Source of the DNA: Bacteroidales bacterium
GTDB taxonomy: Bacteria; Bacteroidota; Bacteroidia; Bacteroidales; VadinHA17
Length of the DNA stretch: 35,036 nt
Direction: 5' to 3'
Assembly (NCBI GenBank): GCA_022865305.1
Contig: JALHSP010000106.1
Location: 1-35,036, forward strand
The notes below the pieces were generated by a model. That model saw only the letters and a program-made list of their open reading frames with translations. It searched no databases and was not told the DNA's origin. Position 1 is the stretch's first letter; every line of letters begins with the position of its first letter. The position numbers and the translations under genes were made by a program. This document shows positions 9,454 through 25,697 of this stretch, piece by piece.

Positions 9454-9476
9454 AGGGATTGGGGATTAGGGATTAG
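9454..9476. repeat. GGGATTA array, left arm of S23 element 1
   Basis: About three units of GGGATTA/GGGATTG on the + strand, 34 bp beyond the stop codon of the S23 gene. It is the inverted counterpart of the TAATCCC array at 9903-9968. Confidence 0.7.
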
Positions 9477-9510
9477 AAAATTTAAATATACGCTTCTGAT
9501 AATGTGTGAG

Positions 9511-9876
9511 TTATGGCTTCGATTGACGATATTTAATTAAACCTGATAGCATTTTGCCAATGCTGTCAAGTTTTTCGGATATTTCATTAAATTCTTTTTC
9601 ATTTATAAAACTCTGATCCCTGGCAATGATTAATTGAGTGTCAAGTTCCGCGACAGACCCAAGGGAAATGTATAAAAAATGGATGTATTCTTTATTGGAA
9701 TCTCTTGCAGCCCCTTCTGCAATATTCGATGGGATCGAAATAGCGGCTCTCTTGATTTGAGCAGTTAGTGAATAAATTTCATCCTTTGGAAACCTTGACG
9801 TTAAAGAATAAATCTCTTTGACAAGTTTCCTACTCTCCTGCCATACTTTAAGATCTTTATGTGTCTGCAGTGCCAT
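9511..9876 (-). CDS. S23-type four-helix-bundle protein (element 1)
   Basis: 121 residues. It has the hallmarks of the S23/bIVP family (23S rRNA intervening-sequence protein, related in fold to the Avd accessory protein of diversity-generating retroelements): N-terminal THKDLKVWQESRKL, then FPKDEIYSLTAQIKRAAISI, PSNIAEGA and a helical C-terminal half with AELDTQLIIA. Length matches the family. Starts at ATG 9876; the next M is far inside. The molecular role of stand-alone S23 proteins is unknown. It is flanked by inverted TAATCCC/GGGATTA arrays and followed by a terminator. It is the most diverged of the four S23 proteins here: its AQIKRAA replaces the DQIRRSSRS of the others. Confidence 0.93.
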   Translation of the reverse strand: MALQTHKDLKVWQESRKLVKEIYSLTSRFPKDEIYSLTAQIKRAAISIPSNIAEGAARDSNKEYIHFLYISLGSVAELDTQLIIARDQSFINEKEFNEISEKLDSIGKMLSGLIKYRQSKP

Positions 9877-9902
9877 ATTCCTTCCTATTTAACTGATTTT
9901 TA

Positions 9903-9968
9903 ACCCTATCCCCTAATTCCTCGTACCTAATCCCTCGTACCTAATCCCTAGTTCCTTATCCCTCATCC
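9903..9968. repeat. TAATCCC array, right arm of S23 element 1
   Basis: Degenerate units of CTAATCCC, CTAATTCC and CTCGTACC on the + strand. It begins 27 bp upstream of the S23 start codon and also forms the stop codon and last ~18 codons (RDKELGIRYEGLGTRN) of the deacetylase-like gene upstream. Confidence 0.75.
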
Positions 9969-10845
9969 TGACAAGAAAATACTTCCCCTCATTCTTCACA
10001 TTCTGCCAGATAAGTTCTTTCAACCATGGAATCGGCTTATCCGTCCATCTTTGTGGATGAAAAGTAATCATCATTCCCCCAGGCAATCTCCCACCCTTTG
10101 CTGCCCTGATTATTTCCGAAGTTGACATGAATTTATATCTATTTTGAAAATTAATCGATTCAGGTGTCATATTCATTAGACTTCCGGACATCGGCTTTAC
10201 TTTCCAGTCTTTATAAACTTCTTCCCCTAATCCCTTGTCCCTAATCCCTAATCCTTTATCCCTAACACTTACAGAACCCCCTCTCCAGGACCTCCCTGTA
10301 TCTGTCAGGTATAACATACTAGAAAAATCGACGTCAAAATACGGTTCCCCGATTATTCCATAATCCCTGTAATCATAATACTCCCACAACAACCTGCTAT
10401 CCCACCTGCTCATCGGACTCCCATGCATGCAGATCGTCTTAACGGGTGCAAGCTCTCTTAATCTCTTCAGATTTTTACTGAAGTTTTCAATCGCAATCTT
10501 TACTATTTCTTCTTTATCCGTTGTGCCTTTGAGCCGTTGCGCCGTTGCGCCTAAATCTTCATAGTGATACCCCACCTCATGCCCCATCCCAGCAATCTGC
10601 TTTATAATCCCTTCATCCCAACTCTCCTTCACTACACGGAAATAATAGGTACCTCTTAAGCCAAGCTCATGCTGTATTTTTGCAAAAATCAATGAATTTC
10701 CCGGTAATTTGTCAACATCATTTCTCAGAACAATAACCCTCTTTGCCGGTTTTGTAATAAACTCTTCAAATGTCTGAAAAGTAAATCCTTGTTGAATTAA
10801 TGAACCAGTCAGTGAGCGATATGATGTAAGGGTAAAATCAAACAT
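9913..10845 (-). CDS. Polysaccharide deacetylase-like protein with array-derived insertions
   Basis: 310 residues starting at ATG 10845. The core looks like a carbohydrate-esterase-4-type barrel: VLRNDVD (residues about 39-45) is in the place of the metal-binding Asp pair, GTYYFR is the next strand, and HEVGYHYEDL and MHGSPMSRWD supply further conserved His residues. It probably acts on a glycan, but the motifs are only partly canonical, so the reaction is uncertain. Two segments look inserted: residues ~98-109 (ATAQRLKGTTD, from a GGCGCAAC-type array) and residues ~193-208 (VRDKGLGIRDKGLG, from a GGGATTA-type array). The last ~18 residues come from the flanking array. The frame stays open through all three. 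Whether the protein still folds is unknown. Confidence 0.75.
   Translation of the reverse strand: MFDFTLTSYRSLTGSLIQQGFTFQTFEEFITKPAKRVIVLRNDVDKLPGNSLIFAKIQHELGLRGTYYFRVVKESWDEGIIKQIAGMGHEVGYHYEDLGATAQRLKGTTDKEEIVKIAIENFSKNLKRLRELAPVKTICMHGSPMSRWDSRLLWEYYDYRDYGIIGEPYFDVDFSSMLYLTDTGRSWRGGSVSVRDKGLGIRDKGLGEEVYKDWKVKPMSGSLMNMTPESINFQNRYKFMSTSEIIRAAKGGRLPGGMMITFHPQRWTDKPIPWLKELIWQNVKNEGKYFLVRMRDKELGIRYEGLGTRN
10223..10267. repeat. TAATCCC array inside the deacetylase-like gene
   Basis: Units CTAATCCC, TTGTCCC, CTAATCC and TTTATCC on the + strand, read as RDKGLG heptapeptides on the coding strand. Same unit as the arms of S23 element 1, about 250 bp away. Confidence 0.75.
10519..10551. repeat. 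GCGCCGTT-type array inside the deacetylase-like gene
   Basis: Four degenerate copies of a CCGTTGCG / CCGTTGTG / GAGCCGTTG unit on the + strand, in frame. The same unit type is found between genes at about 15855-15895, 16808-16840 and 17001-17035. Confidence 0.6.
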
Positions 10846-10867
10846 GAATAATCAATATTAAAAACAT

Positions 10868-12115
10868 TCAGAAATAAAGTCCTGTTAACCAATCAGGTAC
10901 AGGAATAATTCTAATTACCCCTGCAGGGGTTTTTATTTCTTTTCTTTCATTGTATGAAAGAATAACCGAACTTTTGACTGATAGTTCTTTCATTGCTGTT
11001 TCCAGGGCATTGGTTTCACGTTTGTAAGTAACAGGATTGGTGAGATCATAACATACCTGGGCAAGTTGTGGTTCCTTCAGGAACCAGATGAAATCCACCT
11101 CCAGATTGTTTTTGGTTTTGTAGAACCAGCATTCCAATCCTCTTCTCTTAAGTTCTATAAATACAAGGTTCTCAAGCATTCTTCCATTATCCTGACTGGT
11201 TCTGAAGGACACGGCGTTTCTCAGACCATTATCTATTACGTAAATCTTTTTATTTGACTGGTATTGTTTTTTAAGAGAGTAATCGTACCGATAGAGTTCG
11301 AATACCAGATAACTCTCTGAGAGAAAAGAGACATAATCACGTACACTTGTTGTACTATTAAAACCCAGAATTCCGGCTAATGAATTATAATTTGTTTCTC
11401 TTGTAAAGTTGGTAAACAGGTACTGTACAAGGTTTTTAAAACCCTTAACATTTTTAATCCCAAACCTGACAATAAGATCGCGGTAAATTACATCTTCGTA
11501 TATTCTGTGCAGGAATTCGGAGTCATTACTAAATAAAAATTCAGGGAATCCGCCATTTGACAAGTATCCGTCGAAAGCTCCTGACAATTTCCCCAGGTTT
11601 TCAGTTGTTTTCTTTTTATAATCAATTTGTTTAAATTGAAGATATTCGGGAAATGAAAACGGGAATAATTCTGTTTTTATGTACCTGCCGGTTAAGTGAG
11701 TGGCCAGCTCGGAACTCAATAATTTTGAGTTACTCCCCGAGATAAAGACTTTATATTGCTCGTCATGTAATCGTCTCACAAATCGTTCCCATCCTGTTAT
11801 ATTTCGAACTTCATCTATCAAAATGGTTTGGGAAGAATGGTATTTGTTCAGCTCAATCAACAGGGTATTGAAATCAGAAATCTGGAAATTTATTAATCGC
11901 TCATCATCAAAGGTTATATAGTGAAAATCAGGATACTGGTCCGCCAGTTGCAAAAGTAGCGTTGATTTGCCAGAACGTCTGATACCCGAAATTACAGAGA
12001 TCTGCTTTGATTTCAAATGTTTACCGGTATCTATCAGGCGTTTAATTCCTCTGCTTCTCCGGGCTGCCAGCATTTTTTGATCAGCAATAACCTGTTGTAA
12101 TATCAGATAATCCAT
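10868..12115 (-). CDS. AAA_14 / DUF4143 ATP-binding protein (first of three)
   Basis: 415 residues. An N-terminal helical extension (residues 1-37) leads to Walker A GIRRSGKST (44-52), Walker B TILIDEV (about 96-102) and the sensor-like VFISGSNSKLL. A DUF4143-type C-terminal half follows (winged-helix-like STTSVRDYVSFL, then KIYVIDNGLRNAV). In this family the C-terminus has a PD-(D/E)XK-nuclease-like core; here LEVDFIWF is present but the later ExK is replaced (AQVCYD), so nuclease activity is doubtful. I chose ATG 12115; the in-frame GTG at 12127 adds four residues and has no advantage. A TATATTTG promoter box and a palindrome lie just upstream. Function of the family is unknown; some are near mobile or defence genes. 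Confidence 0.85.
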   Translation of the reverse strand: MDYLILQQVIADQKMLAARRSRGIKRLIDTGKHLKSKQISVISGIRRSGKSTLLLQLADQYPDFHYITFDDERLINFQISDFNTLLIELNKYHSSQTILIDEVRNITGWERFVRRLHDEQYKVFISGSNSKLLSSELATHLTGRYIKTELFPFSFPEYLQFKQIDYKKKTTENLGKLSGAFDGYLSNGGFPEFLFSNDSEFLHRIYEDVIYRDLIVRFGIKNVKGFKNLVQYLFTNFTRETNYNSLAGILGFNSTTSVRDYVSFLSESYLVFELYRYDYSLKKQYQSNKKIYVIDNGLRNAVSFRTSQDNGRMLENLVFIELKRRGLECWFYKTKNNLEVDFIWFLKEPQLAQVCYDLTNPVTYKRETNALETAMKELSVKSSVILSYNERKEIKTPAGVIRIIPVPDWLTGLYF

Positions 12116-12135
12116 ATTATTTATCACTATAGATG

Positions 12136-12166
12136 CAAATATATAAACTATTTTGACATTGTCAAT
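12136..12166 (-). promoter_or_regulatory. Bacteroidetes-type promoter and dyad for the AAA_14 gene
   Basis: On the minus strand TATATTTG (12136-12143) fits the -7 consensus TAnnTTTG, with ATTG (12163-12166) 19 nt upstream as -33. The perfect 11-bp palindrome TGACATTGTCA (12154-12164) lies between and may bind a regulator. Confidence 0.55.
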
Positions 12167-12189
12167 GACAATTATATGTATTTTACAAT

Positions 12190-12210
12190 AAAAAATCCTG
12201 TTTTTGCAGG
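12190..12210 (-). terminator. Weak terminator-like hairpin after S23 element 2
   Basis: On the minus strand CCTG CAAAAA CAGG (with two further weaker pairs) is followed by ATTTTTT. The stem is short, so this is tentative. Confidence 0.4.
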
Positions 12211-12317
12211 GTCTCTGTCAGCCGGCAGAGTATGTTGTTAAGGTGAAATCCATTCTTTAAAGATTATACTGAGGGACTCAAGGAGCCCCGCCATGCGGGA
12301 TAAACTCCGCGACGAAG

Positions 12318-12332
12318 TTCCGCGAAGCGGAA
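12318..12332. repeat. TTCCGC-NNN-GCGGAA palindrome, copy 1
   Basis: Perfect 6-bp arms with a GAA loop. Same arms at 15799-15813 (TTA loop) and 18587-18601 (TTT loop); all three lie in array-rich spacers. Confidence 0.6.
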
Positions 12333-12371
12333 GAGAGACTGAGAGACGAAGAGACGAAGAGACGAAGAGAC
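12331..12371. repeat. GAGACGAA array, left arm of S23 element 2
   Basis: Units GAGACTGA and GAGACGAA (8 nt) on the + strand, ending 2 nt before the S23 stop codon. Inverted relative to the array at 12791-12876. Confidence 0.85.
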
Positions 12372-12372
12372 A

Positions 12373-12744
12373 TTACCATGACCAATTTTCAGGATGAAGA
12401 GACATATTAACGAGTTTTCCGATTATATTATCATAGGTTTCATAAAGTTCATTATGATCTTTTTCTGTCATATATGAGCAATTTAAGGAAAAGTCGAGCC
12501 AACATTGTGTTTCTGCGGCCTCGCTCTCAGAGTCTGATAATCTTGAAATAAAAGCTTTAGGGTATCTCCTTTTTCTAAATGCCTCAGCCTGATTTGAACA
12601 GACCGATCTCGACGACCTGCGAATCTGATCAGTCAATGAGTACGTCTCCTCTTTAGGAAAACCTTTTGAAATCTCAAAAATCTTCATTGCAGCATTAAAT
12701 GCTAATTGATAGACCTCAAGGTCCTTGTGTGTCCTGATTTTCAT
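12373..12744 (-). CDS. S23-type four-helix-bundle protein (element 2)
   Basis: 123 residues from ATG 12744 (MKIRTHKDLEVYQ), the usual start position of the family. An in-frame ATG at 12771 would add nine residues (MLNILNRCN) that the family does not need, but it cannot be excluded. Family signatures: THKDLEVYQLAF, FPKEETYSLTDQIRRSSRS, CSNQAEAFRKRRY, ETQCWLDFS. The stop codon almost touches the GAGACGAA array and the start is about 47 bp from the inverted TTCGTCTC array. It lies between two AAA_14/DUF4143 genes transcribed in the same direction. Function unknown. Confidence 0.92.
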   Translation of the reverse strand: MKIRTHKDLEVYQLAFNAAMKIFEISKGFPKEETYSLTDQIRRSSRSVCSNQAEAFRKRRYPKAFISRLSDSESEAAETQCWLDFSLNCSYMTEKDHNELYETYDNIIGKLVNMSLHPENWSW

Positions 12745-12790
12745 ATTGCAGCGATTTAAAATATTTAGCACTAAATAAATTATCTTATAG

Positions 12791-12876
12791 TTCCTTCGTC
12801 TCTTAGTCTCTCTGTCCCTCAGTCTCTCAGTCCCTCAGTCCCTCAGTCCCTCAGTCCCTTAGTCCCTTAGTCCCTC
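12791..12876. repeat. TTCGTCTC / CTCAGTCC array, right arm of S23 element 2
   Basis: About ten 8-nt units (TCGTCTCT, TAGTCTCT, CTGTCCCT, CAGTCCCT, TAGTCCCT) on the + strand. They are the reverse complement type of the 12331-12371 array. The array runs into the TGA stop (12875-12877) of the AAA_14 gene upstream. Confidence 0.85.
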
Positions 12877-14014
12877 ATATAATCTCCCCCCCCCACAACA
12901 TTTCAAGGAATAATTTCCACGGCAAAACAGAGATCCCCTGAATATCCCTTGGATAAGGATCCGTGCTTACAATTATCAGTTTTTTCACTTTGTATTCTTC
13001 AGCAAAGCTTTTTAATCCTTTAAGATGACGCGGATTAACCATGCCGGTTGATTTAACTTCAACAGCAACCTCATGGTCTCCCAGGATAAAGTCAACCTCT
13101 ATCTGTGATGCAGTGCGCCAGTAGAAAAGTGGGAAATTTTTATCGGAATAATGACTATAAGAAAATATTTCATGGTAAATAAAATGTTCAAAAGCCTTTC
13201 CGAAAGCTTCGCTTCCAATTTCCACCCTCCCCCTTTTTAATAAATACCCGGCAATCCCCACGTCAAAAAAATAGAATCTGGGAGCAGTGATAACTCTCCG
13301 TTTTGGTTTTTTCTGATAAGAATTCAGAAATCTGCCGGTCATGGTATCTTCGAGAATATGAAAATATTCTTTAACTGTTGGTGAGCTGATGCCGCAATCT
13401 GCTGCTATGTTTGAATAATTTACCATTTCGCCGTTTGAAAATGCTGCCGCTTCCAGAAACCTGGAAAATGATGTTATATTTCTGATCCTGGCTTCTGTAA
13501 CTATCTCATCACGCAGATAACTTCCTATATAGCCCGATAATAATTTATCAGGATTTGCCGCAAGGTAATGTCGTGGTAATAATCCATTCTTTAAAGCTTT
13601 CAGCAGGTCAAAATCTGGTATTTCAGATGAAACCAGCGGATACAATTCGTATCTGATTGCTCTTCCCCCTAACAGGTTTCCTCCTGAACGCAATATCTTT
13701 CTCGGACTTGATCCGCAGAGAATGAATTGTATGTTCCTGTTGACTATCAGCCAGTGGACTTCATTCAATAACGAAGGAATCCTCTGAATTTCATCAATTA
13801 TTACCGGTCCGGATAAACCGGCATCAGCGAGTATCTCTCTCAAAAGAGATTTATTCCTCAGAAATCGCTCATATTCAGATGATAATAACAAATCAAAATA
13901 AAGGGACCCGGGATACAATTTCTTTAATAAAGTGCTCTTCCCTGTCTGTCTTGCCCCCCAGAAAAAAACAGACTCCCTGCCTGACCCAATGAAGTTTTGC
14001 TTTCGAATATACAT
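12875..14014 (-). CDS. AAA_14 / DUF4143 ATP-binding protein (second of three)
   Basis: 379 residues, ATG 14014. Walker A GARQTGKST (20-28), Walker B GPVIIDEIQ (about 69-77), sensor FILCGSSPRK, then a DUF4143-like half: winged-helix-like segment around YSNIAADCGISSPTVKEYF, RFYFFDVGIAGYLLKRG, and an intact nuclease-like core IEVDFILGD...VAVEVKST (D...ExK). The intact ExK suggests that this copy, unlike the first, could keep the PD-(D/E)XK-type active site. A run of nine G lies within the last codons (12886-12894 as C on the + strand); slippage there would change only the last few residues. The stop codon is at the edge of the S23 element-2 array. Repeated TGATATTTT sites lie at the promoter. 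Substrate unknown. Confidence 0.87.
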   Translation of the reverse strand: MYIRKQNFIGSGRESVFFWGARQTGKSTLLKKLYPGSLYFDLLLSSEYERFLRNKSLLREILADAGLSGPVIIDEIQRIPSLLNEVHWLIVNRNIQFILCGSSPRKILRSGGNLLGGRAIRYELYPLVSSEIPDFDLLKALKNGLLPRHYLAANPDKLLSGYIGSYLRDEIVTEARIRNITSFSRFLEAAAFSNGEMVNYSNIAADCGISSPTVKEYFHILEDTMTGRFLNSYQKKPKRRVITAPRFYFFDVGIAGYLLKRGRVEIGSEAFGKAFEHFIYHEIFSYSHYSDKNFPLFYWRTASQIEVDFILGDHEVAVEVKSTGMVNPRHLKGLKSFAEEYKVKKLIIVSTDPYPRDIQGISVLPWKLFLEMLWGGEII

Positions 14015-14067
14015 GATATTTTGATATGATATTTTATATTATCATGATATTTTAAAGTACAAATATA
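14013..14067 (-). promoter_or_regulatory. Promoter and repeated operator-like 10-mers for the AAA_14 gene
   Basis: On the minus strand TATATTTG (14060-14067) fits the -7 consensus. Between it and the start codon the 10-mer ATGATATTTT (+ strand) occurs at 14013-14022, 14026-14035 and 14044-14053, and TATCATGATA (14040-14049) is a perfect palindrome. No convincing -33 box at the usual distance. Confidence 0.45.
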
Positions 14068-14123
14068 TAACAATTCACAATCAAATAAAAATCGTGGATT
14101 GATTCTGATTTCCGATGAGATAA

Positions 14124-14363
14124 AGGTATTCGGTTTCGCGTTTCACGTTTCGCGTTTTTCGTTTTTCGTTTGTTCCGGATTTATCACTGTACTCTAAACT
14201 CTGAACCCTTAACCACTTACTCACTACTCACATTACTACTCATCGCTCACAACTCATCGCTCATTTCTCCACCCACCTTTCTCTGCCCATTCGCTCCTTA
14301 ATCTCTTAGTCTCTAAGTCCCTAAGTCCCCTGATCACCTCTGCACCATTACGCCTTTACCCCG
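14124..14363. repeat. Composite array island between two ATPase genes
   Basis: Fills most of the 349-bp gap. In order on the + strand: GGTATTCGG; TTTCGCG / TTTCACG / TTTTTCG units; a 97-bp block (14167-14263) found again at 18441-18544; TACTCATCGCTCA units; CTTAGTCTCTAAGTCC units; and GCACCATTACGCC units. The last reach the stop codon of the AAA ATPase gene (QYRRRV). Confidence 0.75.
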
Positions 14364-15461
14364 TTATACCCTCCGTCGGTACTGAATCCACCTGCTGAAG
14401 AAAGGATCATCAATAGAATATACCGATCCTTCCTTAATAATCATCCCTTTTTTCACCAGCCGCTGAAGAGTGCTGAACACCGTACTGGCTGCACCTGTAC
14501 CATACAGCCTGCTGAACTCGTCAGTCAACGGAGAGATATTACCGGCCGACATCCCTGTCAGCACCATCATATCGGTTCGGTTAAGAGTGTTCCACAGCAG
14601 TTCAAAATCATTATCATGACTCATAACAATCTCATAAGCAGCAGCTTCAACAATACCGGACACATCATCCGAACGACTCAGTAACTCCCAGACAGTGAAA
14701 GCCAGTTGCTGTGTATAATACGGGTGCGATCCGGAGATATTGAGAATAGCTTCTGAAACAGGTCCGGCCTCCTTAACAAATCCTGTAAACCTGTATTCAA
14801 GAAATAACCGGAATTTCTCTTCCGGGATTTTTCCGAGCGTAATCAGTGAACCAAAACGGTAAAAAGATGAATCTTTCTTTTCAAAGATATCCCTGATCAT
14901 TGATTCACTGCTACCCATAAAGACATAATTGATATTCCTGTGATTCTGTATTACGGAACGGAGCATCCTGTCAAGGCCGGAATTGATCCTGAAAATATCC
15001 TGGAATTCATCAAGTACAACAATGATCTTTTCACTTTCTTTCCCCAGCTTTTCGATAAGGTTCAATACATCTTCAAGTGGCGCCAGGTCTTTAGATCCGG
15101 GTTTGAATGTAATTTCAACTTCCCCTGTAACCGGATTCAGAATAACTGAAGGTATCAATCGGAAAGATTTTATGTATCCTTTTAACTTCTGCAAGGGAAA
15201 AATGCGGTATATCCTTTTCAAAAGTTGTGATGCAAAATCTTCTTCCGAAATAACCAGTTGCATGTCAAGGTAAACATAACGGCGTCTTGACTCATTGAGA
15301 AGCTTCCTGATAAGACTCGTCTTCCCGAATCGTCTCGGGCTGATAAGGATAAGATGATTTTCACTTTTCAGATAAGACCCTATTTTGGTCAATTCATCTT
15401 CCCTGTCAGTAAAATATTCACCGTCAACAACAGTTCCGAATTTGAAGGGATTCTCTTTCAT
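14364..15461 (-). CDS. AAA family ATPase (archaeal-type ATPase_2-like)
   Basis: 365 residues, ATG 15461. The N-terminus NPFKFGTVVDGEYFTDRE is typical of this group. Walker A SPRRFGKTS (41-49) lacks the usual first glycine, as is common in this family. Walker B is IIVVLDEFQD, followed by the sensor YVFMGSSES and a C-terminal winged-helix-like region (TVFSTLQRLVKKGMIIKEG). It differs from the three AAA_14/DUF4143 proteins and has no nuclease-like tail. The last codons are shared with the adjoining array. Direct-orientation array islands flank it on both sides. Specific role unknown; such ATPases are often found near mobile or toxin-antitoxin genes. Confidence 0.85.
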   Translation of the reverse strand: MKENPFKFGTVVDGEYFTDREDELTKIGSYLKSENHLILISPRRFGKTSLIRKLLNESRRRYVYLDMQLVISEEDFASQLLKRIYRIFPLQKLKGYIKSFRLIPSVILNPVTGEVEITFKPGSKDLAPLEDVLNLIEKLGKESEKIIVVLDEFQDIFRINSGLDRMLRSVIQNHRNINYVFMGSSESMIRDIFEKKDSSFYRFGSLITLGKIPEEKFRLFLEYRFTGFVKEAGPVSEAILNISGSHPYYTQQLAFTVWELLSRSDDVSGIVEAAAYEIVMSHDNDFELLWNTLNRTDMMVLTGMSAGNISPLTDEFSRLYGTGAASTVFSTLQRLVKKGMIIKEGSVYSIDDPFFSRWIQYRRRV

Positions 15462-15563
15462 TACATTCCGATTATATTCGTTACGATATTTTTCGTACTA
15501 AATATACCCATTTAATTCGCAATAACCAAATATGTTTTCATTTCCGGTTTCGCGTTTTCTTTG

Positions 15564-15589
15564 TCCGCCGTAGCCTTGGCGAAGGCGGA
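15564..15589. repeat. REP-like imperfect palindrome, copy 2
   Basis: TCCGCC / GGCGGA outer stem and GCC / GGC inner stem with a TT loop; best-paired copy of the three (others at 9308-9333 and 16761-16786). Confidence 0.65.
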
Positions 15590-15798
15590 TCGTTTTACGT
15601 TTTTCGTTTATTGTTCCGGATTTATTTTCTCCACTGTACTCTAAACTCTGCATCCTGAATCCTAAACCACTTACTCACTATTCACATTTACCTCCCTCCG
15701 TCCTTGACTCATCGCTCATTTCTCACTGCTCATCTCTTTTCGTCACTTGGTCTCTAATTCTCTTAGTCTCTCAGTCCCTTCGTCCCTCCGTCTCTCCG

Positions 15799-15813
15799 TT
15801 CCGCTTAGCGGAA
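15799..15813. repeat. TTCCGC-NNN-GCGGAA palindrome, copy 2
   Basis: Perfect 6-bp arms with a TTA loop inside the 15545-15864 array island. Confidence 0.6.
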
Positions 15814-15864
15814 TTTCGTCGCTTAGTCCCTTCGTCTCTCAGTCCCTAAGTCACCATTAAGTCG

Positions 15865-16305
15865 TTACGCCATTATGCCCCTGCGCCTCTGCGCCATTCC
15901 AACCACCCCCACCCCAACAATTACACCCCCTGCATTAGATACCAGATCGAACACATTAAAAGCCCTTTCCGGCACCCACAGCTGGATCAGTTCGGTAACA
16001 GTGGCCAGAAATAATAACAGCAGAATGAATTTTGTCAGAGAATTTGCAGAGAAGAGTAAGAAGCCCCTTTTCTGACCTGCCAGGTAATAAATGCAGATCA
16101 GGAAATAAGCAGTAAAATGGAGTAGATGGTCGAGACGTATGCGGAATGACTCCGGTCCAAAGGTAATTTTATTGAAACTTCCTTTAATTGGGATGAATGC
16201 GGTTATCAGAACCCCCAGGTAACCGATCCAGAAAAGGTATCGGTAGAGTCTTTGTATTGCAAGTAATCGGTAATCAGTAATCGGTAATCGGTGGTTCTGT
16301 ACCAT
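15865..16305 (-). CDS. VanZ-like membrane protein with both ends read from repeat arrays
   Basis: 146 residues, ATG 16305. The body has about four hydrophobic segments and the VanZ-like pattern: FWIGYLGVLITAFIP, DHLLHFTAYFLICIYYLAG, KFILLLLFLATVTELIQLW and FNVFDLVSNAGGVIVG. The family is small integral membrane proteins of varied or unknown role; a link to the surface glycan locus is possible but unproven. The first ~16 residues (NHRLPITDYRLLAI) are translated from the CCGATTA array that forms the left arm of S23 element 3. The last residues (AQRRRGIMA) are translated from a GCGCC-type array that also gives the stop. No ATG follows the array before the first membrane segment, so either the array is translated or a non-ATG start is used. 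Confidence 0.75.
   Translation of the reverse strand: MVQNHRLPITDYRLLAIQRLYRYLFWIGYLGVLITAFIPIKGSFNKITFGPESFRIRLDHLLHFTAYFLICIYYLAGQKRGFLLFSANSLTKFILLLLFLATVTELIQLWVPERAFNVFDLVSNAGGVIVGVGVVGMAQRRRGIMA
16261..16292. repeat. TAATCGG array, left arm of S23 element 3
   Basis: Four 7-nt units (TAATCGG, TAATCAG) on the + strand, 19 bp beyond the S23 stop. Inverted relative to the array at 16703-16755. It is also the N-terminal coding region of the VanZ-like gene. Confidence 0.85.
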
Positions 16306-16310
16306 TAAGA

Positions 16311-16688
16311 TTATTTCGAACAGAAAGTTGATGATTTATCTACCATTGATTGGAGCATTTTCCCGATTGATTCACATTTTTGTAATAAACTTATAGAAGT
16401 ATCAGAGTCTATATACTTACATTCTTCGGAGATATCGATCCAATGTTGTGTTTCAAGCTGCTCTGAATCAGCATCAGTAAGCTTTGAAATAAAATGAAGC
16501 TCATACTTTCTTTTACCCCATGCTTCAGCGATGTGGGCTCCAACAGATCTTGACGACCGTCTTATCTGATCAGTTAAAGAGTATCTTTCTTCAACCGGGA
16601 AACCTTTACTTATGTTAAAAATTATTTCTGCAACTTCCCTTGATAGTTTATAAACTTCCAAATCTCTAAAGCTTTTTACATATACCAT
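16311..16688 (-). CDS. S23-type four-helix-bundle protein (element 3)
   Basis: 125 residues, ATG 16688. Signatures VKSFRDLEVYKLSRE, FPVEERYSLTDQIRRSSRS, AHIAEAWGKRKYE, HFISKLTDADSEQ and ETQHW. By eye it is a close paralogue of the protein at 25248-25634, much closer than to the other two, so the two cassettes are probably recent relatives. It starts 5 bp beyond the VanZ-like gene, with the array arms on both sides. Function unknown. Confidence 0.93.
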   Translation of the reverse strand: MVYVKSFRDLEVYKLSREVAEIIFNISKGFPVEERYSLTDQIRRSSRSVGAHIAEAWGKRKYELHFISKLTDADSEQLETQHWIDISEECKYIDSDTSISLLQKCESIGKMLQSMVDKSSTFCSK

Positions 16689-16702
16689 ATTATCACCTTA
16701 TT

Positions 16703-16755
16703 ATTGATTACTGATCACCGATTACTGATCACCAATTACTGATTACCGATTACTT
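16703..16755. repeat. CCGATTA / CTGATTA array, right arm of S23 element 3
   Basis: About seven 7-nt units (ATTACTG, ATCACCG, ATCACCA, ATTACCG) on the + strand, 14 bp upstream of the S23 start. Inverted relative to 16261-16292. Confidence 0.85.
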
Positions 16756-16760
16756 TTTAT

Positions 16761-16786
16761 CCTCCGAAGCTTTAGCATAGGAGGAG
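16761..16786. repeat. REP-like imperfect palindrome, copy 3
   Basis: CCTCC / GGAGG outer stem with the same GAAGCTTTAGC centre as the copy at 9308-9333. The outer arms differ between copies, yet pairing is kept. Confidence 0.5.
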
Positions 16787-16800
16787 ATTACTGAATACTG

Positions 16801-17027
16801 ATTTCTCCCCAGCGCCCTTGCGTCGTTGTGCCGTTGTGCCGTTTCGTGTTTCGTGTTTAAACCATATTACCGATTACCGATTACTGATTACTGATTACTG
16901 ATTACCGAATACCATTAACTCATTGCTCATCGCTCACTACTCATCGCTCATTTCCCATCTCCCCTTCCCCCACTCTCCCCCTCTCCCACTCATTTTTCAG
17001 CCCCTGCGCCCCTGCGCCGCTGTGCCG
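16801..17027. repeat. Composite array island downstream of the AbiE pair
   Basis: Rest of the 339-bp gap. On the + strand: GCGTCGTTGTGCCGTT units, TTTCGTG units, CCGATTACTGATTA units (16866-16912), CATCGCTCACTACTCATCGC units, a C-rich CTCCCCCTCTCCC tract, and GCGCCCCTGCGCC units up to the AbiEii stop. No gene seen. Confidence 0.7.
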
Positions 17028-18312: not shown

Positions 18313-18363
18313 TATTCGTATTATTAGTTCACGAATATAGCTATTTTAATTCTGAATAACAAG
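18313..18363 (-). promoter_or_regulatory. AbiE operon promoter with overlapping operator
   Basis: On the minus strand TATATTCG (18332-18339, one mismatch to TAnnTTTG) lies 20 nt downstream of CTTG (18360-18363). The inverted repeat TATTCGT (18313-18319) / ACGAATA (18331-18337) overlaps the -7 box and ends 7 bp before the start codon; a bound AbiEi would block transcription. Confidence 0.6.
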
Positions 18364-18373
18364 TTTAAAGGAT

Positions 18374-18693
18374 TTCCGTTTCGCATTTATAATTAAATTG
18401 TTCCGTGTGCCGGGTGCCGGGTTTCGCGTTTCGCGTTTTTCGTTTGTTCCGGATTTGTCACTGTACTCTAAACTCTGAACCCTGAACCCTTAACCACTTA
18501 CTCACTACTCACATTACTACTCATCGCTCACAACTCATCGCTCAATGCTCTGTGTCTCTAAGTTTCTCCGTTACTCAGTCACTTCATTCCGCTTTGCGGA
18601 ATTTTCGCTTCGCTCCGACCTCCCGATCCTCGAGATTTCGTCATTTCATTCCTCAAGCTTTGCTCCTCAATCTCTCAGCCCCTTCGTCACCTC
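18374..18693. repeat. Composite array island upstream of the AbiE pair
   Basis: Fills most of the 387-bp gap. On the + strand: GTGCCGG, TTTCGCG and TTTTTCG units; a 104-bp block (18441-18544) nearly identical to 14167-14263; the palindrome 18587-18601; and CTCAATCTCTCAGCCCCTTCGTC units up to the DUF354 gene. No gene seen. Confidence 0.75.
18587..18601. repeat. TTCCGC-NNN-GCGGAA palindrome, copy 3
   Basis: Perfect 6-bp arms with a TTT loop. Confidence 0.6.
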
Positions 18694-20753: not shown

Positions 20754-20802
20754 TAATATTATTCCACAATTTTTATGAGGGGCACTTTGAATCAAGTAAA
20801 AA

Positions 20803-20887
20803 GGTATTCGGTAAGCAGTATTCAGTGTTCGGTATCCGGTGGTCTTTATACTGTTTTACCGATTACCGATTACTGATTACCGGATAC
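20803..20887. repeat. A-B heptamer hairpin unit 1
   Basis: Block A (GGTATTCGG, GTATTCAGTGTTCGG, 20803-20842), a short spacer, then block B (ACCGATTACCGATTACTG, 20857-20887). B contains the TAA stop of the upstream glycosyltransferase (20870-20872). Confidence 0.8.
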
Positions 20888-21796
20888 CTCTTCATATAAC
20901 GCAACTACCCTCCTGGCAATAGTCTCAGAATCCAACCCCAATTCAATAATCCTCTCCCTCCCGTTGGTAATTTTACCAAAAGCAAGAGCCGCCTTGATTT
21001 TATCTGCCACAGCTTCAGGTTCAAAGGAAGTGATATAACAACCTTCTATTCCACCTGTCATCCATTTCACATCCCCGACATCTGTTGAAACAACGGGACA
21101 ATTACAAGCCATAGCCTCTTTTACGACATTTACACTACCTTCATATTTTGAAGTTAAGAGTAATACATCTGCTGCATTCAGGTAATAAGGGACTTCTGCA
21201 TTTGGCACATTGTAAATTTGCTTAAGCTCAATATTATTATTATGTACTATGGCCGTTGCTTCCTTCGCTAAATCATAATTTTTTTCAGTTCGGTTTGGAT
21301 CAGAAATAAAAAGTATAATCTTTTTGTCAGACTGATAATTTATATGAGTTCTTGCTTCGGTCATGGTTATAGGTTTAAATCTCTCAATATCTACACCATT
21401 GGGAATAATTTGAGCCCTCTTCATCCTTAACAGCTCTTTCATCTGTCTGGTTTTCACAATTGTAGTATCCCACTTGTACTTGTAAAAAAACTGTGTAATT
21501 GTTCGTAAAAATCCAGACATAAAAGCATCTGAACCCATCAGAGACACCACCAAGGGAGAACACCCTGCCAATGATGCTGCAAATCCGCTGAGGCTGTAAT
21601 GCGCATGTGCCAGATCATAATTACCTCTTTTGAAGGTTTTGCTTATATCAGGAATAGCTGAAAGATATCCGGAGAGACCGGGTTTAATAATATAATAATC
21701 AATTTCGATCCCGGCGGCCTTAAGGGACTCGCCCTGATTTCTGACAACATTCCCTACATTCCCGCTTTTCCCGCTTGAGACAAAAAGTACTTTCAT
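20870..21796 (-). CDS. GT4-family glycosyltransferase
   Basis: 308 residues from ATG 21796 (MKVLFVSSGKSGNVGNVVR). The open frame upstream to 21895 only reads the array as PNTEYRI and would start at TTG, so I reject it. Domains: N-terminal acceptor side with LAHAHYSLSGFAASLAG, linker IIPNGVDIERFKP, and C-terminal nucleotide-sugar domain with SKYEGSVNVVKEAM (the E-x7-E signature) and CPVVSTDVGDV. It transfers a sugar from a nucleotide donor to a glycan; the sugar is unknown. The final Gly-Asn-Gln and stop come from the array. Confidence 0.9.
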   Translation of the reverse strand: MKVLFVSSGKSGNVGNVVRNQGESLKAAGIEIDYYIIKPGLSGYLSAIPDISKTFKRGNYDLAHAHYSLSGFAASLAGCSPLVVSLMGSDAFMSGFLRTITQFFYKYKWDTTIVKTRQMKELLRMKRAQIIPNGVDIERFKPITMTEARTHINYQSDKKIILFISDPNRTEKNYDLAKEATAIVHNNNIELKQIYNVPNAEVPYYLNAADVLLLTSKYEGSVNVVKEAMACNCPVVSTDVGDVKWMTGGIEGCYITSFEPEAVADKIKAALAFGKITNGRERIIELGLDSETIARRVVALYEEVSGNQ

Positions 21797-21803
21797 TCTT
21801 TCT

Positions 21804-21819
21804 TTCACCGCTAAGACGC
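21804..21819. repeat. 16-nt motif upstream of start codon, copy 1
   Basis: TTCACCGCTAAGACGC, 7 nt upstream of the glycosyltransferase ATG and directly before a GGTATTCGG array. An identical copy lies at 29971-29986. Confidence 0.6.
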
Positions 21820-21827
21820 TTGTTATT

Positions 21828-21982
21828 TGGTATTCGGTGTTCGGTATTCGGTATTCGGTGTTCGGTATTCGGTATTCGGCGTTCGGTTCTTTCAACTGGT
21901 TTACCGACCACTGATTACTGATTACCGATTACCGACCACTGATTACTGATTACCGATTACCGACCACTGATTACTGATTACC
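21828..21982. repeat. A-B heptamer hairpin unit 2
   Basis: Block A (GGTATTCGG/GGTGTTCGG, about eight units, 21828-21889) then block B (CCGATTACCGACCACTGATTACTGATT, 21903-21982), in which a ~29-nt superunit recurs almost three times. B contains the TAA of the upstream ATP-grasp gene (21971-21973). Confidence 0.85.
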
Positions 21983-23029
21983 TGCAAACTTTTTTAAAAC
22001 AAACTCTACCCGCAAATCATAACACCCATTCCTGGCAAAATCACCCGATTCAAATACCCATCTCCCCCCGATAAACCTGTACCTTCCTGCCTGGCCATCA
22101 ACAAGCATCTGGAAAGGATCGCTCTGCCCGAAAATACATTGCATTTCATTTACCAGGTAACCTCGTTCAGATTCAAAAACATCTAATGCCTGACTGTAAA
22201 ATCCATGTCTGTCTGTAATTTCTTTTAAAAAATCCAGCAGATCCAGGGGCGGATTATCATAATTCTTCAGCAGAGAACCGCTGCTTTTCTCTCCTGTTTT
22301 TAATTTCTTATGAGCAAAAAAACTTTCTCCTATTCTCACCGTCCTCCATTCAAAATCGTGAGGAATATATTCCTGGAAAATCACAAATCCCTTCTGAAGA
22401 TTGACAGTTTTGGTCTGATAAATATCGAGTTTCTTTAATATATCTGACGGATGAAGAATATAATGAAATCCTCTTTTCAGGATTCCTCCCTTGTCAAGAT
22501 TTGGCCCTGTTCGCTGAGGAGATCCCTTCCCTGAAAAAGTATCTTTAATATACTTGTGCGCTTCAATTTTGTTCCTGATTATCCTGACTCCGCTCCCTGA
22601 TGCACCGATATTTGTCTTGGCGACAAAAGGGAATTCACATTCTTCTGAATATTTAAATGCTTCCTTCCGATAGTAAAATACATCAGTGGCAGGATAAGGT
22701 ATATTGTTCGCTTTCAGCCAGAAAGAAAGGAAGCGCTTATTTTCATATATAAATATTCCCAGTGGAGACGGGAATATTTTATAACCCAGAATATAAGCAA
22801 GAATATAGATTCTTTCATCATAAAGCTGCTTGAATGGAGCAGTTAATCCTCCCGGTTTAGCAAGGAGAATGTCAAAAGGTTCTTTTTGTATCTCTTCAAG
22901 CCAGTCTGAAGCAGTCAGATTAACAACCCGGTATTCAATATCATTCCTGTATTCTTCACATGCCTTAACCCAGAGGATGTGGTCATCTTCTTGCTCATTC
23001 CGCAATATTATAACCTTAATCTTTCTCAT
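21971..23029 (-). CDS. ATP-grasp domain protein of the glycan locus
   Basis: 352 residues, ATG 23029. The layout fits the ATP-grasp superfamily: an N-terminal domain (KVIILRNEQEDDHILW), then FPFVAKTNIGASGSGVRIIRN (lysine and glycine-rich loop that covers ATP), FVIFQEYIPHDFEWRTVRIGESF, and near the C-terminus YLVNEMQCIFGQSD, where the E-M-Q would hold the metals. ATP-grasp enzymes join a carboxylate to an amine or thiol using ATP. In polysaccharide loci they may add amino acids to sugars; the substrate here is unknown. The stop codon and last residues (AGNQ) come from the array downstream. Confidence 0.85.
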   Translation of the reverse strand: MRKIKVIILRNEQEDDHILWVKACEEYRNDIEYRVVNLTASDWLEEIQKEPFDILLAKPGGLTAPFKQLYDERIYILAYILGYKIFPSPLGIFIYENKRFLSFWLKANNIPYPATDVFYYRKEAFKYSEECEFPFVAKTNIGASGSGVRIIRNKIEAHKYIKDTFSGKGSPQRTGPNLDKGGILKRGFHYILHPSDILKKLDIYQTKTVNLQKGFVIFQEYIPHDFEWRTVRIGESFFAHKKLKTGEKSSGSLLKNYDNPPLDLLDFLKEITDRHGFYSQALDVFESERGYLVNEMQCIFGQSDPFQMLVDGQAGRYRFIGGRWVFESGDFARNGCYDLRVEFVLKKFAGNQ

Positions 23030-23082
23030 TTTCTTAAGACAATGATCTACTGACTTTTAAGCATCACCATTTTACAACACAA

Positions 23083-23173
23083 GGTATTCGGTATCCGGTG
23101 TTCGGTATTCGGTAATTAGTGGATTCAGAATAACCGATTACTGATTACCGATTACTGACTACTGATTACTGAT
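23083..23173. repeat. A-B heptamer hairpin unit 3
   Basis: Block A (GGTATTCGGTATCCGGTGTTCGG, 23083-23114) and block B (ACCGATTACTGATTACCG, 23131-23173). It is followed directly by unit 4, so two units lie in tandem between the same two genes. Confidence 0.8.
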
Positions 23174-23180
23174 AAGATCA

Positions 23181-23263
23181 TGGTATTCGGTAAGCGGCAT
23201 TCGGTATTCGGTCTTACTTTAAACAACATACTGATTACTGACTACCGACTACCGATTACTGAT
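23181..23263. repeat. A-B heptamer hairpin unit 4
   Basis: Block A (GGTATTCGGTAAGCGGCATTCGG, 23181-23212) and block B (ATTACTGACTACCGACTACCG, 23230-23263). B contains the TAA (23256-23258) of the AbiEii-like gene. Confidence 0.8.
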
Positions 23264-24197
23264 AACGATGAGCGTTGGATTTTAATTTTAATTCCTGTTT
23301 AAGATTTTCAAGTTGTTGTTGATGCTTTTTCGGGGAGTATGCTCTCAGATAATTAATATTCTGCAGCTTCCATTTAATCGCAGGATAGTTTTTAAAATCA
23401 TTGAAAGAATCGAGACTCCAGTCAGGGCTGCCGGATTTAAAACTTATTATAAACCTCTTATCATCCTCTGTTAAAATGTTCCTGATACAAGTAATGAGAT
23501 CTTCTCTTGTCTTCACGAAATCTTCATAGGTAAATACCTCCCTTATCATGCCGGTGAAATTATTTACCAACGTACTCCGCTGATCAATTCGGGCAGGATT
23601 TAAAATTTCATGTCATGGTCTTGAACTGCTGAGCAGACAGAACAGAAACCCTTGCTTCAAATCGTCATTAATACCATCTTCCTCAAGAAGACATCTAATG
23701 TCAAAAATGTCTCGAGCGTGTTGCCTGTCCAACGCTGCACATATTTTACCGCCATAAAGTTGACCCAAAGGGATTACAGGTACCTCAGCATAAAGTGCAA
23801 ATTCCTTCTGGGCAGATTTACAGAGAGATTTTGTCTCAGGTGTCTTAAGAGAACCCCGGTTGACGGTATTTACCTCGATTTTAACTTGAACTCCTTTTAA
23901 TACGCAGACAATTTTACTTTCCCCTGTATGTTCGTCCGGACCAGTAATATGAATTCCCGGAATTACTCTGTTCAGGTTGGTTTTGATTCTTTCAAGTATC
24001 ATCCTGATTTTTGTCAGGCTTTCATCACGATCTTTCAATGGCAGATAGGTCAAATCAATATCCACAGATAATCTGGGCATTTCTCTGATAAAAAGGTTAA
24101 TTGCAGTTCCGCCATGCAATGCTACATCAGGTTCCCGGGCAATAACAGGTAAAATCCTGATTAAAAGTGATACCTGCTTTTTATAACTATCATTCAT
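23256..24197 (-). pseudogene. abiEii: AbiEii-like nucleotidyltransferase interrupted by an in-frame TGA
   Basis: The frame from ATG 24197 stops at TGA 23613-23615 after 194 residues, but the same frame continues without further stop to TAA 23256. The continuation (HEILNPARIDQ...FTYEDFVKTREDL...FKSGSPDWSL...WKLQNI) is the normal C-terminal part of this family. The cause is therefore one nonsense codon, not a frameshift. The first part keeps the catalytic motifs: LHGGTA (27-32), S-V-D46-I-D48 and the KICAALDRQHARDIFD motif. The 194-residue product might thus still be partly active; the last ~118 residues are lost unless TGA is read through. ATGA overlap with the AbiEi-like gene upstream. Confidence 0.85.
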
Positions 24198-24961
24198 GCT
24201 TTAGCCAAATCGGATGGGATTGTGATTTGAAAATCAGGAATAAAAACTCCGTCCGTTACGATGCTTCTTTTACCCTTACCAATATCTACTTTGCTCATGT
24301 CCAGGTGTTTTACCCAGGAATGTCTTGCTTTAACAGCCAGATAAAGAAATAGCCTGGCAATTTTAACTGAATTACATTTTGATAAAAGGAATTGAACCTC
24401 AACCGGGCGCAACGCAGTTAATCCTTCCATAATCTGGTATGCCTCTAGCAGGTTGAATTCCCGGGGTGCAAGATACAAACACTCCATAAGAGCACGTGTT
24501 GGTGAAGAAATCATAACGGTGAAATTTTTTACTTCAACGGCAACTAACGCCGCATCATCAGGAAGAAAATCAGTTTTATGCAATATAAATTCCAATCCCC
24601 AATCAAAGTTTATGAACCAGGAAGGAAGAAATGTACCACGGGGAGCAAAAAGGTCTCTCTTCTTCTCCTCCATCTCCAGGTAATGAGCCAGCCCATGGAT
24701 ATTCAGAGCTGAACGACCACCAATATGGATTTTGCTCTTTGCCTGATTTTGGATAGCATGAAGTGCACCAAGCCAATTGACATTCTGCCCTGTCCTGACC
24801 AAAGCGCCTCTGCCAATAGGTCTTAACCATCCTGATTTGATGTATCTGCGTTGTAGATCGCGGGAATACCCGTTAGTCTCTAACCACGAAGCCAGGAACA
24901 CAACCCCGGATGGCTGAGATTGAAGCAAAAGGTTTATTTTTGTTTGATTATTAGTACTCAT
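24194..24961 (-). CDS. abiEi: AbiEi-like antitoxin (second pair)
   Basis: 255 residues, ATG 24961. The N-terminal half (FLASWLETNGYSRDLQRRYIKSGWLRPIGRGALVR) is the AbiEi-type winged-helix region, followed by the IHIGGRSALNIHGLAHYL segment and the C-terminal antitoxin domain (ISSPTRALMECLYLAPREFNLLEAYQIMEGL). It is longer than, and not closely similar to, the antitoxin at 17719-18306, so the two AbiE pairs are not recent copies. It overlaps the toxin gene by 4 bp (ATGA). Being intact beside a broken toxin, it could act as an orphan repressor. Confidence 0.87.
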   Translation of the reverse strand: MSTNNQTKINLLLQSQPSGVVFLASWLETNGYSRDLQRRYIKSGWLRPIGRGALVRTGQNVNWLGALHAIQNQAKSKIHIGGRSALNIHGLAHYLEMEEKKRDLFAPRGTFLPSWFINFDWGLEFILHKTDFLPDDAALVAVEVKNFTVMISSPTRALMECLYLAPREFNLLEAYQIMEGLTALRPVEVQFLLSKCNSVKIARLFLYLAVKARHSWVKHLDMSKVDIGKGKRSIVTDGVFIPDFQITIPSDLAKA

Positions 24962-24965
24962 AGTA

Positions 24966-24973
24966 CAAATTTA
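24966..24973 (-). promoter_or_regulatory. Possible -7 box of the second AbiE pair
   Basis: TAAATTTG on the minus strand matches TAnnTTTG, only 4 nt before the ATG. If used, the transcript would have almost no leader. No clear -33 box. Confidence 0.3.
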
Positions 24974-25047
24974 CAAACATTTTTAAACTATTATGATACC
25001 TCGGCGTTGTTTTTTGACTCCTTTTCAGAAATGTCCGGGACGCCTCC

Positions 25048-25073
25048 CATAATAAAAAAACGACTTTATTATG
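25048..25073. repeat. Perfect 9-bp inverted repeat
   Basis: CATAATAAA (25048-25056) and TTTATTATG (25065-25073) around an 8-nt loop, in the 286-bp gap between the AbiE pair and S23 element 4. The rest of the gap is CTCTAAACCCTGAGCCC array-like sequence and arm DNA; no gene seen. Confidence 0.45.
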
Positions 25074-25185
25074 CCCCATGCTCTAAACCCTGAGCCCTCC
25101 TGATAAGGCGGGACAGGTTGCGCCCTGCATTGTTCCAACCCCACAGGGATCCAGACTAAAAGTATTGACTACTGATAACTAAAAG

Positions 25186-25263
25186 GGTATTCGGTAAGCG
25201 GTATTCGGTTTTTGGTTTTTGGTATTCGATTTACAAAGAATTACTGATTACCGATTACTGATT
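25186..25263. repeat. A-B heptamer unit 5, left arm of S23 element 4
   Basis: Block A (GGTATTCGGTAAGCGG, GGTTTTTGGTATTCG, 25186-25229) and block B (ATTACTGATTACCG, 25241-25263). B encodes the last four residues (ISNR) and the TAA of the S23 gene. Block A is inverted relative to the CCGAATACC units at 25656-25697. Confidence 0.8.
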
Positions 25264-25634
25264 TTACAGAACTTTGCTGACTTATCAATCATGGAATAAA
25301 GCATTTTACCAATTGATTCACATATTCCAAGAAGCCGTTTAGTATCTTCAATATTGAGGTATTTACATTCTTGAGAAATCTCTAACCAATGCTGTGTCTC
25401 TTGTTGCTCAGAATCAGCATCTGTAAGTTTTGAAATAAAATGTCTTTCATAATTCCTCTTCCCCCATGCTTCAGCTATTTGTGCCCCTATTGATCTTGAG
25501 GATCGTCTTATTTGGTCAGTTAATGAATATCTCTCCTCAACCGGAAAACTCTTACTAAGAATAAATATCTCCCTTGATAATTCTCGAGACATTTTATAAA
25601 CCTCAAGTTCTTTGAAACTCTTAACATATTCCAT
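25248..25634 (-). CDS. S23-type four-helix-bundle protein (element 4)
   Basis: 128 residues, ATG 25634. Signatures VKSFKELEVYKMSRE, FPVEERYSLTDQIRRSSRS, AQIAEAWGKRNYE, HFISKLTDADSEQ and ETQHW. Closely similar to the element-3 protein 9 kb away; differences are spread over the length and the tail differs because this copy ends inside an array (KISNR). Lies between the second AbiE pair and the asparagine-synthase-like gene. Function unknown. Confidence 0.93.
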   Translation of the reverse strand: MEYVKSFKELEVYKMSRELSREIFILSKSFPVEERYSLTDQIRRSSRSIGAQIAEAWGKRNYERHFISKLTDADSEQQETQHWLEISQECKYLNIEDTKRLLGICESIGKMLYSMIDKSAKFCKISNR

Positions 25635-25655
25635 TTTTATTCAAATTTCCCAATT

Positions 25656-25697
25656 AAATACCGAATACCGATTACCGAATACCGATCACTGATTACC
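25656..25697. repeat. CCGAATA / CCGATTA array, right arm of S23 element 4
   Basis: Six 7-nt units on the + strand (AATACCG twice, ATTACCG, AATACCG, ATCACTG, ATTACC), 22 bp upstream of the S23 start. Mostly inverted relative to the GGTATTCGG units of the left arm. Confidence 0.8.

Follow-up and report, generated by a model that had tools for sequence, protein, structure and literature searches.

Four small genes of the S23 family (PF05635) in the genome of a Bacteroidales bacterium of the VadinHA17 lineage each lie between two tandem arrays of 7-8 nt units that are reverse complements of one another. The genes occupy a stretch of 35,036 nucleotides (contig JALHSP010000106.1 of assembly GCA_022865305.1, our contig C71, analyzed whole and called the window below) in a draft genome of 4.98 Mb that is 99.5% complete. 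The S23 gene and its arms together probably constitute a discrete mobile cassette of ~450-600 bp, in which S23 would bind the arms while host enzymes act on them, and of which solitary arrays would be the relics.

All four open reading frames (ORFs) match PF05635 at E <= 3.2e-30, with scores of 104.9-144.2 bits against a curated cut-off of 33.8 bits. All four are on the minus strand, the genes around them have AAA_14/DUF4143, AbiEii, VanZ, and other domains, and S23 is the sole coding content of each unit. The arrays, located with Tandem Repeats Finder (TRF) and then inspected by eye, were found where a preliminary description of the same DNA had placed them (Table 1). That description had the arms starting 2-52 bp from the gene ends; the close spacing stands, and the measured gaps are 1-60 bp. 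Rfam at gathering thresholds gave no match in the window, rRNA included, and the neighbors are protein genes.

Inverted repetition was scored by locally aligning the 200 nt upstream of a gene with the reverse-complemented 200 nt downstream and taking the best alignment. The background was 596 other genes called in 790 kb of this genome, including 98 genes of <= 180 amino acids. The limits of S23 genes were set as the domain plus 25-30 nt and those of other genes as the ORF ends; the arm-swap control described below is independent of this choice. A PF05635 search of the genome returned 18 rows, counted as 17 places because two rows represent one broken gene. Fifteen of these 17 fell in the top 5% (Mann-Whitney p = 1.1e-10), and the difference was retained against the 98 size-matched genes (p = 3.2e-9) and after removal of the window contig (13 S23 vs. 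571 genes, p = 2.4e-8). The misses were C157:112750 (6.2%) and a truncated copy, C85:25675 (71.5%); among the window elements, element 1 scores weakly (16, top 4%). Inspection of the flanks revealed such arrays at most of the 17 places, and the unit differs from place to place, e.g., GCGATGA/CTCATCG at C37:37207, CGTTTCG/CGAAACG at C1:21462, and TTGCTGG/CCAGCAA at C85:32492. Direct repeats at S23 flanks are at most weakly enriched (p = 0.045).

The same architecture recurs well outside this genome. The genome and 40 relatives formed a set of 41, of which 35 contain S23; 10 of 110 S23 ORFs were left out for a short domain, a short flank, or duplication. In the relatives, 86 S23 genes with both flanks had a median inverted score of 23.0; the median was 10.5 for the 438 other genes on these loci (p = 2.5e-37), and 68 of the 86 reached the background 95th percentile, while direct repeats gave p = 0.55. 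The comparison with size-matched controls proposed in the preliminary description also gave higher inverted scores for S23 (106 small genes of these loci, p = 8.1e-27). For the relatives, as for the five sets that follow, the background consisted of other genes on S23 loci; neighboring genes there share an arm with S23, and the resulting bias acts counter to the favored reading.

Since p values treat genes as independent and those of relatives are not, separate phyla were scored. S23 occurs in 116 of 148 genomes drawn from the phylum, and 29 genes from this draw had a median inverted score of 17.5 vs. 11.0 (p = 4e-8). Named loci, the best 80 of 269 picked by likeness to four proteins, gave medians of 21.0 vs. 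11.0 for Bacteroidota/Chlorobi/Ignavibacteria (45 S23, p = 1.7e-17), 22.0 vs. 9.8 for Chloroflexota (11 S23, p = 2e-6), 28.8 vs. 10.0 for Cyanobacteriota (8 S23, p = 6.5e-6), and 19.0 vs. 9.5 for other phyla (14 S23, p = 3e-9; Gemmatimonadota, Armatimonadetes, Planctomycetes, Deltaproteobacteria, Omnitrophota, Acidobacteria, Neomarinimicrobiota, and Kiritimatiellales). These five sets hold 107 genes, 6 of 113 ORFs having been left out for a short domain, a short flank, or duplication; direct repeats gave p values of 0.5-0.77, except 0.017 in the other-phyla set. S23 copies in conjugation operons of Trichormus and Scytonema carry arms (scores 24.5 and 22.5), and only one (L367; L handles denote loci) of 15 cyanobacterial plasmid copies lacks them, these copies being hand-picked (11 of 34 records plus four more) and including the near-duplicates L311/L312, L313/L314, and L362/L364. 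Phages gave no S23 match. On an Anabaena plasmid (L369), an S23 cassette was also seen in a type I-D CRISPR locus, between cas6 and cas4. Several S23 genes lie no more than a few hundred bases from contig ends (L089, L090, L094, L109, and others), as if the arrays break assemblies.

The two arms of a cassette are specific to each other. Across 152 strong elements they agree in 78.5% of 8286 columns, and exchanging arms between elements lowered the median score from 23.8 to 10.5; the true partner ranked first of 100 for 37 elements and among the best three for 67. A period was seen in 82 of 148 upstream arms, mostly of 8 (37), 7 (32), or 9 (10), vs. 5 of 148 shuffled arms. Read on the coding strand, the 5' arm is G-rich in 76 of 80 cases among the relatives and 72 of 75 in the five further sets. 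The swap control, together with the lineage and further-phyla comparisons, bears out the earlier claim of a single architecture with element-specific arms.

Arm sequence is tied to the protein. Arm similarity tracks S23 identity (Mantel r 0.46, 0 of 500 permutations), and arms are common to <= 1% of pairs below 50% protein identity and to 65% of pairs at 70-80%. A common arm family was combined with >= 60% protein identity in 69 pairs, of which 55 had no homologous same-side neighbor within 5 kb and 14 had one; many loci extended only 1.5 kb beyond the unit, which restricts this comparison of neighbors. When arms change within lineages, both do so: matched arms fitted better than swapped ones in 41 of 54 disjoint pairs and worse in 12, with one tie (p = 8e-5, with 4 duplicates removed), and the split was 10 to 4 in the closest class (0.80-0.97). 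As judged from these alignments, the arms are shown to be inherited with the S23 lineage, the partners continuing to match while the unit sequence drifts. The S23 gene, with a median dN/dS of 0.11 and values <0.5 in 25 of 25 disjoint pairs, is by this measure under purifying selection. The relatives' flanks, the lineage-linked arms, and the occurrence in further phyla agree with the earlier proposal of a family of small elements. Its companion suggestion, that the arms are set by the target site, found no support: arm sequence goes with S23 descent, and most sites that lack the gene are free of arms.

The presence/absence comparison of relatives that had been recommended revealed S23 units present or missing at three sites. 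At tdh, 30 loci were seen from 54 matching genomes of 58, and four contain S23 sequence: that of the genome itself (L257), L268, and the shortened copies L260 and L265. Where S23 is present, the spacer between tdh and acs measures 577 (own), 570, or 474 bp; where it is absent, 55, 78, or 118 bp. Short array-free spacers lacking S23 occur in L262, L271, L274, and L276. In many other loci, including L262, L264, L267, L274, L275, L276, and L277, the gene after tdh is presumably kbl, as its first residues led us to assume. Two loci without S23 (L264 and L275) retain what look like solo arms of the own element's family, and L258 has a short remnant. Behind an amidohydrolase gene S23 was found in 1 of 24 loci (own, 633 bp), a glycosyltransferase gene adjoining without S23 in 15 of 24. 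On plasmid pNe_5 of Nostoc edaphicum a cassette lies antisense between nrdA and nrdB (497 bp), and the same spacer in Calothrix NIES-4105 is 40 bp long, with neither arrays nor S23. A CTTTGTG/CACAAAG-type hairpin, different from the S23 arms, was observed without S23 at the tdh loci L263, L267, L270, L277, and L279-L282.

Homology limited to the cassette was found in two comparisons. Fischerella (L331) and Nostoc punctiforme NIES-2108 (L332) are 89.8% identical over 498 bp comprising S23 and both arms, with no further match in 3.3 kb and different neighbors, and two N. punctiforme loci (L335 and L338) are 84.9% identical over 471 bp with no other match between them. Both show what is expected of a mobile element, i.e., the same unit in unrelated contexts with homology that ends at the ends of the unit. 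The L338 cassette lies in an alkB-like gene, where 477 bp replace 329 bp of the uninterrupted homologs L353, L354, and L359; in L335, L342, L362, and L364 a like cassette (452-477 bp) replaces 328 bp of a cytosine methyltransferase gene that is whole in L360 and L361. By comparison of loci alone, the unit is shown to be present or absent between the same neighboring genes and to be able to replace target DNA, and the arms appear as its outer ends, which are likewise shown to come and go with the gene. The target losses are nearly equal (329 vs. 328 bp) in unrelated genes, an observation based on two events.

Arrays also occur alone. In the 790 kb, 36 of 39 solitary intergenic arrays resembled S23 flanks from relatives more closely than equally many control flanks, as did 27 of 30 outside the window contig. 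For 24 of the 39, the fit exceeded that of all eight unit-permuted versions. Such arrays correspond to the gene-less copies of flanking repeats found for RAYT/REPIN systems. Among other gene families, genes for DUF559 (Vsr-like nuclease) were observed between inverted flanks with CCCCCT...AGGGGG hairpins, in this genome (C1:34202-34600, C25:209156-209554) and at L371-L400. Of their flanks, 17 of 27 score >= 17 (from 30 rows, 2 left out for short flanks and one that matched on masked bases), compared with 3 of 106 small genes and 68 of 86 S23 genes. Small GIY-YIG nuclease genes (L401-L424) have flank repeats that are direct, not inverted (20 scored, direct median 25.8; of 30 loci, 6 long ones were left out and 4 dropped for short flanks), and some of these resemble copied terminators or tRNA ends.

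The cassette may be selfish and a sister of the S23 elements that reside in 23S rRNA. S23, a four-helix bundle of a family that includes Avd, would bind its own array units on folded single strands and hold the two cassette ends together, and cutting and joining might be done by host replication or repair. Loss of the gene would leave the arms as solitary heptamer arrays. The preliminary description had the transcript folding back with S23 in the loop. For two elements tried, the minimum-energy folds do pair the arms (z -1.6 and -3.7), whereas G-U pairs of the sense strand are not in excess among the mismatches between arms (330 vs. 398 of antisense type; 52 vs. 64 elements, p = 0.31). This wobble test gave no sign of selection for RNA pairing, any excess being on the antisense side. 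The folds thus allow a stem, and with mismatches that do not favor G-U pairs, a role in DNA or as a single strand is as likely. Reverse transcriptase and Y1 transposase were rejected as obligatory partners: at E <= 1e-8, in incomplete draft genomes, RVT_1 was not matched in 21 of 35 S23-bearing genomes and Y1_Tnp was not matched in 7 of 35, and 6 of 35 had a match to neither. The genomes without an RVT_1 match include G014, with 10 S23 rows, and G009 and G024, with 9 each.

Several results weigh against a mobile cassette. No movement has been observed, and the element would be one without a known catalytic protein. Loss of units would yield the same presence/absence pattern, most elements of the same family have diverged, and no recent jumps were seen in the genus of the window. 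Set beside classical DNA transposons, the sites showed no clear target-site duplication, and a spacer of 129-132 bp was replaced; the absence of 328-329 bp from the two interrupted cyanobacterial genes suggests that arrival of the cassette removed target DNA and was not a simple insertion. Arms are not universal: 18 of the 86 S23 genes of relatives score under the background 95th percentile, and of 20 places scored in three cyanobacterial genomes, 12 attain 17 and 8 do not (from 30 rows, 8 truncated copies were left out and 2 more at contig ends). The observation itself is qualified by an unusual richness of the window contig in arrays: three of its 25 other scored genes (20870-21895, 21971-23029, and 25747-27423) exceed the background 99th percentile. 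Equal geometry around randomly chosen genes, which the preliminary description had named as refuting its idea, is uncommon genome-wide and does occur locally.

Other explanations place the origin of the arms or the function of S23 elsewhere. Array hairpins could arise independently between genes and S23 elements insert into their loops, much as the rRNA elements sit at helix tips, the arms being the property of the site. The rRNA elements do lie in 23S helices (helix 45 in Coxiella; PMC4990558), and gene-less hairpin pairs exist in the window (Table 1). This account is nonetheless quite unlikely given that the arm unit goes with the S23 lineage, that several tdh spacers and the nrdA-nrdB spacer lacking S23 are short and array-free, and that the roughly 90% identity between cyanobacterial genera takes in the arms. 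Alternatively, arrays may be recombination hotspots in their own right, with S23 one of several small genes that end up there. Other window genes also adjoin arrays, and DUF559 genes have inverted flanks too; the scarcity of scores of 17 among other small genes at S23 loci, the bond between arm unit and S23 lineage, and the conservation of S23 make such a passenger role very unlikely.

Two alternatives remain. If S23 bound the arms of its own mRNA, solitary arrays could be its targets in other transcripts, forming a post-transcriptional regulon of the sort that MacGregor proposed for TAACTGA repeats. The nearness of the arms to the ORF, their co-divergence with a protein under purifying selection, and the pairing in two predicted folds are in keeping with autoregulation; we nevertheless consider it unlikely, since the sense strand has no G-U excess and cassettes lie antisense to both neighbors (the nrd genes) or within other genes, unlike what shared regulation would give. 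Finally, S23 as a relative of Avd might act together with a resident reverse transcriptase for which the folded transcript serves as template, and slippage in copying could create the arrays. In favor, the S23 proteins of the window match the bAvd profile (E 5e-11 to 2e-6, with three of the four below the cut-off); the many S23-bearing drafts in which RVT_1 was not matched render this highly improbable.

The known systems nearest to the proposed cassettes include the intervening sequences of 23S rRNA, which also combine a PF05635 protein with complementary ends. In Coxiella, tandem heptamers directly precede the S23 ORF and vary in number between strains (PMC4990558). The cassettes described here have ends able to form a stem around the ORF, as judged from predicted folds and with no wobble signature, and differ in their location, which is outside rRNA and either intergenic or within protein genes, in numbering many copies per genome, and in having long tandem-array arms that vary between elements. 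Family membership and the Coxiella heptamers support the earlier view of these units as stand-alone kin of the rRNA elements. RAYT/REPIN systems similarly place a gene between inverted repeats, with gene-less repeat copies elsewhere and co-divergence of repeat and protein (PMC3116915); S23, however, is not a Y1 transposase, its ends are tandem arrays, and it is present in many copies per genome. The window units encode S23 only, with no Y1 transposase in or beside them as in RAYT/REPIN or IS200/IS605 elements. Avd of diversity-generating retroelements belongs to the fold superfamily of S23 (bAvd profile; PMC10053308), yet neither a reverse transcriptase gene nor a template repeat was seen beside the window S23 genes. 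Of the solved relatives of S23 (2rld and 2gsc), 2gsc is a pentamer of four-helix bundles (PMC4990558; title cited in PMC10053308).

The arrays themselves resemble the short tandemly repeated repetitive (STRR) sequences of cyanobacteria and the heptamer repeats of Xanthomonas, Nostoc, and Beggiatoaceae, which have 7-nt units, are intergenic, and often form hairpins (PMC4692102, PMC2670836, PMC4679880). GGGAATC repeats pair convergently in 70 cases in Xcc and 75 in Xac, and the repeats are described as having no general association with mobile elements (PMC4692102). S23 is named in neither PMC4692102 nor PMC4679880 (term counts of 0); the tie between heptamer repeats and S23 is made in the present analysis. 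No publication on S23 genes between inverted arrays was found in literature that omits most subscription journals and bioRxiv, a coverage that makes the absence of a prior description weak evidence of novelty. We propose tentatively, and with slightly more doubt than confidence, that S23 cassettes are a class of mobile element not recognized so far: minimal units with inverted tandem-array ends of G-to-C polarity, whose 7-9 nt unit drifts yet always matches between the ends, and which move with neither a transposase nor a reverse transcriptase of their own and can replace target DNA. The class would extend to at least Bacteroidota, Chloroflexota, Cyanobacteriota, and several other phyla, would have given rise to much of the heptamer repeat DNA that cyanobacteria and other organisms have been known to contain since 1990, and would include the 23S rRNA elements as a specialized branch.

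S23 ("four helix bundle protein") is widespread, conserved, and without known function, and heptamer arrays in cyanobacterial and other genomes are unexplained; linking the two gives both a testable role. Natural pairs of arms and protein offer a route to what S23 and Avd-like four-helix bundles bind, and the cassettes suggest an origin for the S23 elements in 23S rRNA. If movement is true, this would be an element without its own nuclease.

Table 1. Positions of S23 genes, their arms, and related arrays in the window.
Feature	Position	Strand	Basis
S23 gene, element 1	9511..9876	-	PF05635 E 2e-42
5' arm, element 1 (sense GGGATTA-type units, 7/14 nt)	9911..9968	-	TRF rows 9911-9968, 9912-9964
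3' arm, element 1 (sense TAATCCC-type units)	9454..9476	-	TRF; inverted score 16, top 4%
S23 gene, element 2	12373..12744	-	PF05635 E 3.2e-30
5' arm, element 2 (sense GAGGGACT-type units, 8 nt)	12805..12877	-	TRF score 111
3' arm, element 2 (sense TCGTCTCT-type units)	12334..12371	-	TRF score 62; inverted score 28.5, top 0.3%
S23 gene, element 3	16311..16688	-	PF05635 E 1.1e-30
5' arm, element 3 (sense CGGTAAT/CAGTAAT units)	16700..16754	-	TRF rows
3' arm, element 3 (sense CGATTAC units)	16263..16292	-	TRF; inverted score 26, top 0.7%
S23 gene, element 4	25248..25634	-	PF05635 E 5.6e-32; solved relatives 2rld, 2gsc
5' arm, element 4 (sense CGGTATT/CGGTAAT units)	25657..25697	-	TRF rows
3' arm, element 4 (sense GAATACC units)	25186..25228	-	TRF; inverted score 26, top 0.7%
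Inner array overlapping S23 end of element 4, in the direction of the 5' arm	25240..25263	-	TRF
Array without S23, unit family of elements 3 and 4	20856..20882		TRF
Array pair without S23, unit family of elements 3 and 4	21824..21982		TRF
Two tandem inverted array pairs without S23, unit family of elements 3 and 4	23083..23263		TRF, by eye
Inverted array pair without S23, unit family of elements 3 and 4	27440..27530		TRF
Inverted array pair without S23, unit family of elements 3 and 4	29996..30141		TRF

The window has further repeats and genes of note. Three spacers (14129-14360, 15550-15900, and 18390-18690) contain a common series of array types in conserved order (TTTCGCG, CTCATCG, TCTCTTAG, etc.) and look as if copied from one composite. 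Approximately four copies of a 279-bp repeat lie at 5192-6357. Two AAA_14/DUF4143 ATPase genes (10868-12127 and 12875-14014) are situated amid the S23 elements, and an ATPase_2 gene is found at 14364-15461.

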